From a virus, in the IMG/VR virus record IMGVR_UViG_3300025151_000091, positions 1 to 41,828 of that record: a stretch of DNA of 41,828 nucleotides; one strand, 5' to 3'. Numbering within the stretch: position 1 is the stretch's first letter; each line of letters starts with the position of its first letter. Below are positions 5,897-35,684 of the stretch, piece by piece. The translations under genes were made by a program, and so were the position numbers. The notes beneath the pieces are model-generated. The model saw nothing but the letters and a program-made list of their open reading frames with translations, ran no database searches and was not told the DNA's origin.

Positions 5897-7114
5897 ATGC
5901 CAAGCACATATACTACGAATAATGGTATTGAACTCATAGCCACCGGGGAACAATCGGGAACATGGGGCACTACCACCAATACCAACCTAAGTCTTCTAGA
6001 TACATCTTTAGATGGTCAAGTCACTATTACCTTGAGCAGCGCGGGATCTTCGGGGTCTCCGAACGCATTGCCGGTCACAAATGGAGCCGCTTCTAATGGT
6101 AGAAATCGTTTAGTTATTTTTAATGATGGAGGGGACTTAGGCGGCACCGCTTTTGTTCAACTCACTCCTAACGATGCTGAAAAAATTATTTACATACGGA
6201 ATAGTTTATCTGGAAGCAGAAGCATTTTAGTTTTTCAAGGAACGTATAATGCGTCAAACGACTATGAGGTTCCTGCGGGAACGACTGCCGTTATCTATTT
6301 CGACGGTGCCGGGACTGGTGCTGTTGCAGCTAATGTTTTTAATAACGCTTATTTTGATAGCTTGCGGTTGGGTTCTGTATCAGTTACCGCAATACTTGAC
6401 GAAGATAATATGGCTTCCGATAGCAATACTGCGTTGGCTACGCAACAATCTATTAAAGCGTATGTAGATACTCAGCTTACCGCAGAAGATTTAGATTTTG
6501 CGGGTGATAGCGGTACAGGTTCAGTTGATTTAGACAGTCAAAGTCTTACAATCGCAGGCACTTCAAATGAGATAGAAACGTCTGCAAGTGGTCAAACTCT
6601 GACGGTAGGTTTGCCCAGTGGGGTCACCATAGGGACATTAACTTTAACCAACGATTTGACGGTAGCTAACGGCGGCACAGGCGCATCGAGTGCTGCTGAC
6701 GCAAGAAGTAATCTTGGTTTAGTTATTGGTACAAATGTTCAGGCGTATGATGCGGATACAGCTAAAACTGATGTGGCTCAAACTTACACTGCGGGTCAGA
6801 GAGGTGAGATAACTGCACTCAGTGATGGTGCGACGATTACACCAGACATGGCAGATAGTAATAACTTTAGTGTAACTCTAGGTGGCAACCGGACACTTGC
6901 TAATCCAAGCAATCTTACCGCAGGGCAATCAGGTTCTTTTTTTATAACGCAAGATGGCACAGGCAGTCGGACTTTAGCATACGGAAGTCAATATGATTTT
7001 ATTGGAGGTACTGCTCCGACACTTACAACAACTGCAAGCGCAGTGGACAGGATAGATTATGTAGTTAGGACAACTGGCTCAATCCATTGTGTCTTTACGG
7101 GTAACTATTCATGA
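5897..7114 (+). CDS. Tail fibre protein (405 aa)
   Basis: The N-terminal MPSTYTTNNGIELIATGEQS followed by GTWGTTTNTNLSLLD is the common virion-attachment opening of many phage fibre proteins. The middle contains AYFDSLRLGS, TQQSIKAYVDTQL and the fibre hallmark VANGGTGASSAADARSNLGL. The C-terminal part (about 300-405) is a compact beta domain with SGSFFITQDGTGSRTLAYGS. No intramolecular chaperone motif is recognised. The gene ends in an ATGA overlap with the next fibre gene, suggesting a two-protein fibre. Confidence 0.75.
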   Translation: MPSTYTTNNGIELIATGEQSGTWGTTTNTNLSLLDTSLDGQVTITLSSAGSSGSPNALPVTNGAASNGRNRLVIFNDGGDLGGTAFVQLTPNDAEKIIYIRNSLSGSRSILVFQGTYNASNDYEVPAGTTAVIYFDGAGTGAVAANVFNNAYFDSLRLGSVSVTAILDEDNMASDSNTALATQQSIKAYVDTQLTAEDLDFAGDSGTGSVDLDSQSLTIAGTSNEIETSASGQTLTVGLPSGVTIGTLTLTNDLTVANGGTGASSAADARSNLGLVIGTNVQAYDADTAKTDVAQTYTAGQRGEITALSDGATITPDMADSNNFSVTLGGNRTLANPSNLTAGQSGSFFITQDGTGSRTLAYGSQYDFIGGTAPTLTTTASAVDRIDYVVRTTGSIHCVFTGNYS

Positions 7115-25272: not shown

Positions 25273-25854
25273 ATGGACTTGACTAAACTGATGGAAGAAG
25301 ACCTCAGCCCGAATAAAAATTCGGTCGAGAGTCTGAATCAAAGCGGACTAAAATCCGTGGCAACTGTAGCGAAGAAGATTAGAGACAAAGAAGAACTTAT
25401 TTCTGATCTTGAGGAAAAACTATCCGCTGAGAAAAAAGCTTTGCTAAAACTAACCGATGAGGATTTACCTGGGATGTTTATCGAGCTTGGACTAAGTAAA
25501 CTGGAGTTAGACGATGGCTCAACTGTGGAAGTCAAGCAGACTTACGGCGCGTCAATCAAGGTAGATAACAGACCGGCGGCTTACGATTGGCTTCGAGACA
25601 ATGACTACGACGACATCATCAAAAATACTGTGGCTTGTAATTTTGGCAAGGGTGAAGATGAAAACGCAAAACAGTTTGCAGAATTTGCGTTGAAGCATGG
25701 CTTCGATGCCCAAACTAAAACAGAAGTCCATCCACAAACACTTCGTGCTTTTATCAAAGAACGTGTTGAGGCCGGTGACGAGTTCCCGATGGAGCTTTTT
25801 GGCGCATGGGTAGGACAACGCGCAACAATCAAACGTAAAAAGGGGAGTAACTAA
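25273..25854 (+). CDS. Conserved phage replication-operon protein (193 aa)
   Basis: ATG follows AAAGGAGAAACG. Residues 25-60 are a coiled-coil-like helix (KKIRDKEELISDLEEKLSAE). Then come LPGMFIELGLSKLELDDGST and VEVKQTYGASIKV, a helix with CNFGKGEDENAKQF, and VHPQTLRAFIKERVEAGDEF before a basic tail. I recall homologues at the start of replication operons in many podoviruses, annotated only as unknown. Its place upstream of an SSB-like protein suggests a DNA-metabolism role. It overlaps the next start by one base. Confidence 0.65.
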   Translation: MDLTKLMEEDLSPNKNSVESLNQSGLKSVATVAKKIRDKEELISDLEEKLSAEKKALLKLTDEDLPGMFIELGLSKLELDDGSTVEVKQTYGASIKVDNRPAAYDWLRDNDYDDIIKNTVACNFGKGEDENAKQFAEFALKHGFDAQTKTEVHPQTLRAFIKERVEAGDEFPMELFGAWVGQRATIKRKKGSN

Positions 25855-26636
25855 TGGCGACAAAAACCGCTGTAGCAAAGAAAAAAGAACAAAACCTTAC
25901 AGTTTTCGATTCGTCAATTTTTGAGGAGGATGCCGGTAAGGGTTTAGAGAATGTAGGTCAAGAAGATCTGGCACTGCCTTTTGTTAAAGTCCTGTCAGGT
26001 AACGATCCCGTGCTCGACGAAAATGAGGAAGCCCGAAAAGGGGACATTTATAACACTGTTACGGGTCGTATCTACAAAGGCAAAACTGGAATAAGAGTTA
26101 TTCCATGTGCGTATCAAAGACGTTTTATTCAATGGGCTCCTCGTGGTTCTGGCACTGGCGCACCTAGTGCTATCTACACACCACAAGACGAGCGCCCAAA
26201 GACCGAACGCTCTGCGGAGGATAACAAAGAGTATGTGGTTGGCGGTAGCGGCGAATACATCGAAGAGACGCATCAACATTTTGTATTGGTTCTAAATGAT
26301 GATGGTTCTATTGAGACAGCCCTGATTGCCATGAAATCCACTCAGTTGAAGAAATCGCGCAAGTGGAATTCAATGATGGCAAGCCGCGTTATGCAAGGTC
26401 AGTACGGAACCTTTACTCCGCCGAGATATAGTCACATTTACACCTTGAAAACGATCCAAGAGGAAAACTCTAAAGGCTCGTGGCACGGCTGGGAAATGGC
26501 ACTTGAGGGGCAGATTGAGGATGCCGCAATGTATCAGCAAGCAAAGAAGTTTTCTGAGGATATTACGGCGGGTGACGTTGTAGTCAAACACGACAATGGA
26601 GAGGGTGATTCTAACGGAGATCAAATACCGTTTTAA
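25854..26636 (+). CDS. Putative single-stranded DNA-binding protein (260 aa)
   Basis: The core contains LALPFVKVLSGNDPVL, GDIYNTVTGRIYKGKTGIRV and PCAYQRRFIQWAPRG, then FVLVLNDDGSIETALIAMKS, a beta-rich OB-like stretch. The end is acidic and finishes GDQIPF, close to the bacterial SSB tail DDIPF that recruits replication proteins. I recall this family in phages, sometimes annotated as SSB. It lies between a conserved unknown and the primase. The family call is from memory; the SSB tail is seen. Confidence 0.55.
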   Translation: MATKTAVAKKKEQNLTVFDSSIFEEDAGKGLENVGQEDLALPFVKVLSGNDPVLDENEEARKGDIYNTVTGRIYKGKTGIRVIPCAYQRRFIQWAPRGSGTGAPSAIYTPQDERPKTERSAEDNKEYVVGGSGEYIEETHQHFVLVLNDDGSIETALIAMKSTQLKKSRKWNSMMASRVMQGQYGTFTPPRYSHIYTLKTIQEENSKGSWHGWEMALEGQIEDAAMYQQAKKFSEDITAGDVVVKHDNGEGDSNGDQIPF

Positions 26637-34788: not shown

Positions 34789-34977
34789 ATGTTAAAAAAA
34801 GTAATTGCACTCTTATTAATCACGATACCTCTGACTGCTTCGGCGGGTAAGCTACTAAAATGCGAAGGGGTCATGACTAACAACGGTTACAAATATGTGG
34901 GCACGTACTGTATGGATTTTAACTGTACGTATGTTCAACGTTTTGTTTTTGATACGTACTGTCCGTTTAGTGTCTAA
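34789..34977 (+). CDS. Exported Cys-rich peptide (62 aa)
   Basis: ATG follows CGGAGAACAC. Residues 1-19 (LKKVIALLLITIPLTASAG) are a signal peptide. The mature peptide of about 43 residues has four Cys (LLKCEGVM, YCMDFNCTY, TYCPFSV), enough for two disulphides. Function unrecognised; the size resembles periplasmic or secreted phage accessory peptides. The stop overlaps the next gene. Confidence 0.6.
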   Translation: MLKKVIALLLITIPLTASAGKLLKCEGVMTNNGYKYVGTYCMDFNCTYVQRFVFDTYCPFSV

Positions 34978-35221
34978 TTACAACAAATCGTTAGAGGAAA
35001 AGATGATCGAGGCAGAGGCTTGCCTCGATGGTCTTGAAAAAGATAAAGTTAGCCTTGCCGAGTTACTAACGCTTTACCGGAGAGGGGTGGAGTTGATTCA
35101 ATCCTGTCAAGAGGACTTGAGAGCATACGAGTTTAAGATTCAGGCCCTTGATCACCGAACAGGAAAATTAGTGGATGTCAACCCAGAATCCGTCATCAAA
35201 AAACACAAAAACGTCACCTAG
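34970..35221 (+). CDS. Exonuclease VII small-subunit-like protein (83 aa)
   Basis: A GTG at 34970 overlaps the preceding stop; an ATG at 35003 after AGAGGAAAAG would remove the first helix and is the alternative. The core KSLEEKMIEAEACLDGLEKD, then VSLAELLTLYRRGVELIQSC and QEDLRAYEFKIQALDHR follow the two-helix pattern of XseB (S-x-E-x2-L-x-E-x4-L-x8-SL-E-x3-Y-x2-G-x2-L-x2-C). XseB subunits coat the stalk of XseA in ExoVII. No XseA is in the window. It overlaps the resolvase gene by 47 bases. Confidence 0.6.
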   Translation: MSNYNKSLEEKMIEAEACLDGLEKDKVSLAELLTLYRRGVELIQSCQEDLRAYEFKIQALDHRTGKLVDVNPESVIKKHKNVT

Positions 35222-35684
35222 ATCTCGAAAACCACGAATCGATTTACTTTGGCGTGAGAACGAACACGTCGTTGTCTTCTCAGCCGGTCAACCCTCCAAG
35301 TGGATCGGTCGGTGCAAACATTGCGGGGGAGTACACGAACAACAAGGCCGTTCAATTAAGAAAAACTACATGGCCCGTGAGTGTCCCGCCTTTGCTCCCA
35401 GAAACAAAATTTATAAGAACGTCGAGGATAGCAAACTTGTTCTCAAGTACGGAATCACCTTCGACGGATTCAAGACCATACTAAAAGCCCAGAATTTTTC
35501 TTGCGCGATATGCGGGGTTCATCAAACCGAACTCAACTACCGCATGGCCGTGGACCACGATCACTCGACCGGCAAGGTTCGAGGACTGCTTTGCCGTCCG
35601 TGCAACCACGCCATAGGGCTACTGAAAGACGATCCACGGAACGCGGCCCGCGCTTCAGAGTATTTGAAAGCGAACAAAGAATAA
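35175..35684 (+). CDS. Recombination endonuclease VII-like Holliday resolvase (169 aa)
   Basis: The C-terminal half has CAICGVHQTEL, then VDHDHSTGKVRGLLCRPCNH and AIGLLKDDP, the His-Me/beta-beta-alpha-metal nuclease core of T4 endonuclease VII, with two CxxC knuckles holding zinc and HDH as catalytic residues. The N-terminal part has another knuckle (CKHCGG) and a basic opening. The enzyme would resolve branched DNA before packaging. ATG at 35175 lies inside the XseB-like gene, indicating coupling. Confidence 0.85.
   Translation: MSTQNPSSKNTKTSPRSRKPRIDLLWRENEHVVVFSAGQPSKWIGRCKHCGGVHEQQGRSIKKNYMARECPAFAPRNKIYKNVEDSKLVLKYGITFDGFKTILKAQNFSCAICGVHQTELNYRMAVDHDHSTGKVRGLLCRPCNHAIGLLKDDPRNAARASEYLKANKE

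Follow-up and report, generated by a model that had tools for sequence, protein, structure and literature searches.

A lone exonuclease VII small-subunit gene overlapping an endonuclease VII gene in a group of uncultivated marine phages

Exonuclease VII subunits in bacteria and phages

In bacterial exonuclease VII (ExoVII), DNA binding by the large subunit XseA requires the small subunit XseB, and the activity of the enzyme drops when XseA outnumbers XseB (PMC11077951). ExoVII degrades single-stranded and double-stranded DNA cassette ends in lambda Red recombination, which is helped by its removal (PMC3434165). The complete enzyme, XseA plus XseB, has been annotated in many Gordonia phages (PMC4939782). 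In about 20 of these phages (Daredevil gp43/gp44, BrutonGaster gp52/gp53, Yvonnetastic and others) we found the two genes side by side, with XseA directly upstream of XseB. The gene described here is likewise a phage-encoded XseB, yet it stands without XseA and overlaps a gene for an endonuclease VII (EndoVII). Small phage proteins that act on a host recombination nuclease include P22 Abc2 and lambda Gam. The mode of action considered below is similar to theirs; we claim no sequence relation, and to our knowledge neither protein is homologous to any subunit of its target host enzyme.

The original prediction took a phage XseB to be something undescribed. The XseA-XseB pairs of Gordonia phages show that phage XseB as such is already known, but the solitary form linked to EndoVII seems to be new: the literature searched, with most subscription journals outside its coverage, yielded no account of a phage XseB standing alone. 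The other XseB matches checked in the phage collection are unverified contigs with the bacterial xseA-xseB gene order. With XseA upstream of XseB, the 'phage' records MT836401, OR846610, MT835629, MT835471, OR847378 and OR847537 were judged to be bacterial chromosome and discarded. OR850252 (1.9 kb) carries XseB without XseA, followed by a polyprenyl-synthase-like ORF (recognized by eye), as in the discarded bacterial records.

Identity of the small subunit and absence of the large one

The window, that is, the whole stretch of DNA analysed, is a linear IMG/VR record of 41.8 kb from which the packaging (terminase/portal) region is seemingly missing. The product of its XseB gene (Table 1) is a genuine member of the XseB family, as judged by curated models and by fold. 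It scores 43 bits against PF02609 (cut-off 24; E 4.8e-11) and 47.3 bits against TIGR01280 (cut-off 35), and this profile similarity bears out the initial assignment of the frame as XseB-like; the XseB proteins of four related contigs (L003, L004, L011 and L098) also pass both cut-offs. In phmmer searches it matched 1VP7 at 1.2e-4 and 8TXR at 0.022, and its GTG start is backed by the aligned ATG starts of the relatives. In a structure model based on 33 homologues (mean pLDDT 79.3), helices span residues 8-22 and 29-53 and a beta hairpin of lower certainty comes after them; the model thus contains the two-helix hairpin seen in 1VP7 and 8TXR. The best 11 Foldseek matches of the model in the PDB are all XseB chains of these two entries (probability 0.98-1.00), most of them superposing with an rmsd of about 1 A across about 50 residues; the E-values are weak (0.035-0.27) because the protein is so short.

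Table 1. Positions of the XseB locus and of further genes mentioned in the text
Feature	Record	Position	Strand	Remarks
Lone gene for XseB, small subunit of exonuclease VII	window	34970..35221	+	83 aa; GTG start
Small Cys-rich ORF, signal-peptide-like	window	34789..34977	+	62 aa; from the ORF list; 3' end overlaps XseB start by 8 nt
Endonuclease VII-like HNH nuclease	window	35175..35684	+	169 aa; PF02945 3.6e-22; PHROG endonuclease VII 1.6e-31
Overlap of XseB 3' end and EndoVII 5' end	window	35175..35221	+	47 nt
Pam3 gp33-like (PF23984) and gp34-like (PF23977) proteins	window	25273-26636	+	upstream of primase gene
DruA-like protein	L141 (L010 contig)	6341-6937	-	PF14236, Druantia family, E 2.4e-20; between XseB and EndoVII
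CysN-like GTPase (PF00009)	L141	3636-6004	-	adjoins PAPS-reductase-domain gene (CysD-like, PF01507) of the same phage
DNA polymerase sliding clamp-like protein	L143	17005-17628	-	207 aa; by eye; no Pfam match
Second XseB-like gene, more divergent	L078	2334-2561		after UvrD-like helicase gene
Second XseB-like gene, more divergent	L108	6001-6228		after UvrD-like helicase gene

In a comparison of 11 EndoVII-linked phage XseB proteins with 49 bacterial sequences, both groups shared the core residues E9, E16, E23, L33, L42, C46 and L50, of which the first six are invariant among the phage proteins and L50 is present in 10 of 11. Unlike the bacterial XseB proteins, with which they have this E/L/C core and the hairpin fold in common, the phage proteins are encoded beside EndoVII and have an invariant D61, while E30, E37, R44, Q47 and E54, nearly invariant in the sampled gammaproteobacterial XseB, are mostly changed. 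These changes leave the fit of phage XseB to a host XseA uncertain. A basic residue at position 37 was dropped as a phage-specific mark, since XseB of B. pertussis has R37 too. In trees built from the 80-residue XseB the EndoVII-linked phage proteins form one clade (support 99/98); the donor of the clade was not recovered by these trees, the XseB of the K189A clade being nearest in the small set of sequences and not in the larger.

No XseA was detected in the window, as predicted: PF02601 gave no match at E <= 10 there and none in 46 related records, whereas the same search detected the XseA of Daredevil at 4.3e-71. A complete phage ExoVII, with XseA in the same phage, was therefore not found. 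Since the window is without its packaging region, the absence of XseA rests mainly on a related record of 57.8 kb (G007), in which terminase, portal, capsid, tail and replication genes can be recognized by eye from the sequence; its lack of XseA indicates more than a short-fragment effect.

The gene downstream encodes, by family, a putative nuclease of the Holliday-junction resolvase type, with 78.5 bits against PF02945 (cut-off 23.6) and a CxxC...DHxH...RGLLCxxCN motif (HNH/zinc) that is kept in seven aligned relatives. The predicted overlap of XseB with a resolvase gene proved exact to the base, and 9 of the 11 compared sequences have this same length, while in L098 and L099 it is 86 nt. On the upstream side, the overlap with the Cys-rich ORF might possibly provide translational coupling. 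Homologues of this ORF are sited elsewhere in L003 and L098, so that it appears mobile among the relatives and is no constant partner of XseB.

Conservation and divergence among relatives

A single-sequence search with the window XseB yielded no viral relatives, and IMG/VR relatives were recruited via EndoVII, polymerase and alignment searches. The EndoVII search gave 10 relatives, all with an upstream XseB frame that in nine directly overlaps EndoVII; with the alignment searches added, at least 14 IMG/VR contigs have XseB above the Pfam cut-off. The frame is intact in every copy found, and the search of relatives for the XseB-resolvase pair, suggested along with the prediction, recovered EndoVII together with XseB in 13 of the 14 contigs. 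The sole exception to their co-occurrence, which holds in both directions, is L097, a contig that ends inside XseB. The pair is found in none of the 31 other polymerase relatives listed, all of which extend 3.5 kb or more past the polymerase on its downstream side. The carriers, which are uncultivated marine phages, cluster together with full support in the polymerase tree; the pair therefore need have been gained only once, and the contig counts are not independent. The layout differs in L010, where a DruA-like gene splits XseB from EndoVII; this gap is possibly an insertion hotspot. On the same contig, the CysN-like and CysD-like pair may represent sulfate-activation genes. Table 1 also lists a polymerase clamp-like protein and the Pam3-like proteins of the window.

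Between close relatives XseB is under purifying selection, with dN/dS values of 0.02/0.16, 0.02/0.11, 0.02/0.46 and 0.06/0.48. Among the window, L003, L004, L005 and L007, XseB is only 34-58% identical in 9 of 10 pairs, while in those pairs EndoVII is 87-94% and the polymerase 94-97% identical; silent sites are near saturation in XseB (pS 0.64-0.91) and stand at 0.28-0.50 in EndoVII. This pattern suggests that XseB alleles have been replaced by recombination on a common phage backbone. It also bears on the proposal that XseB and the resolvase form a DNA-processing module: the genes do always travel together, but the much faster divergence of XseB argues against its forming a tight physical complex with EndoVII. 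As EndoVII does not vary along with XseB, the variable partner of XseB is probably a host protein rather than EndoVII.

In L078 and L108 there is a second, more divergent type of XseB-like gene, located after a gene for a UvrD-like helicase. The L078 protein scores 25.7 Pfam bits, slightly above the cut-off, and falls below the TIGR01280 cut-off; its gene overlaps the start of polA. EndoVII was not found on the L078 contig, nor XseA on the L078 or L108 contigs, both of which are short fragments.

Possible action on the ExoVII of the host

Because XseA depends on XseB and responds to the stoichiometry of the two (PMC11077951), extra XseB can matter, and given that ExoVII trims DNA ends that serve phage-type recombination (PMC3434165), a lone phage XseB could raise, redirect or block the host enzyme. 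Action on host ExoVII is plausible, and the divergence pattern favours it. In the mechanism that we propose, the phage would make only the small subunit of ExoVII, presumably expressed in an operon with its EndoVII. Phage XseB would bind host XseA and convert host ExoVII into a phage-controlled enzyme for trimming single-stranded DNA, probably with more or redirected activity, and ExoVII and EndoVII may then act together on branched or single-stranded phage DNA intermediates. We give about even chances to an assembly of phage XseB on host XseA that increases ExoVII activity, or turns it to other ends, while phage DNA is processed. The identity values given above for XseB and EndoVII fit a variable host partner better than EndoVII. 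Somewhat less probable, in our view, is the more specific case in which a fast-diverging, host-matched XseB would re-specify the host XseA holoenzyme for the processing of phage DNA with EndoVII, a hijack by small-subunit replacement.

The main rival is a decoy or inhibitor: phage XseB would tie up host XseA or poison the oligomer, leaving single-stranded recombination or replication intermediates of the phage untrimmed by ExoVII. The hampering of lambda Red recombination by ExoVII end degradation (PMC3434165) would give such an activity a use, several polar positions conserved in bacteria are changed in the phage clade, and the quick divergence of XseB alleles fits an arms race; however, XseB normally supports activity, the core fold positions are kept, and the presence of complete ExoVII in phages suggests that its activity can be useful. 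We consider inhibition rather unlikely, at perhaps half the chance of assembly into an active enzyme, and favour a gain or redirection of activity, since selection preserves the core and other phages encode the whole of ExoVII.

A role apart from XseA is more doubtful still. The XseB fold might have been adapted into a small helical cofactor for EndoVII, whose gene overlaps that of XseB, as the strict co-occurrence of the genes, their conserved overlap and the lack of both in the other polymerase relatives listed might suggest; yet this is improbable when EndoVII changes so little where XseB is mostly so different, when a DruA-like gene can come between the two in L010, and when the XseB-like genes of L078 and L108 lie after a helicase gene, the search of the L078 contig having turned up no EndoVII. 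That XseB is a mere passenger, a host xseB captured along with EndoVII and retained without a selected function, seems very improbable: the gene is small and one gain of the pair suffices on the polymerase tree, but the low dN/dS, the conservation throughout the clade and the intact frame in every copy all speak against it.

If assembly of phage XseB on host XseA is indeed how the protein works, these phages would provide a natural case of viral control exerted on a host repair nuclease by way of the small subunit. They would also offer a handle on the role of the multiple XseB copies per XseA, and on whether the supply of XseB sets the activity of the enzyme, and ExoVII would be named as a phage-relevant host factor.
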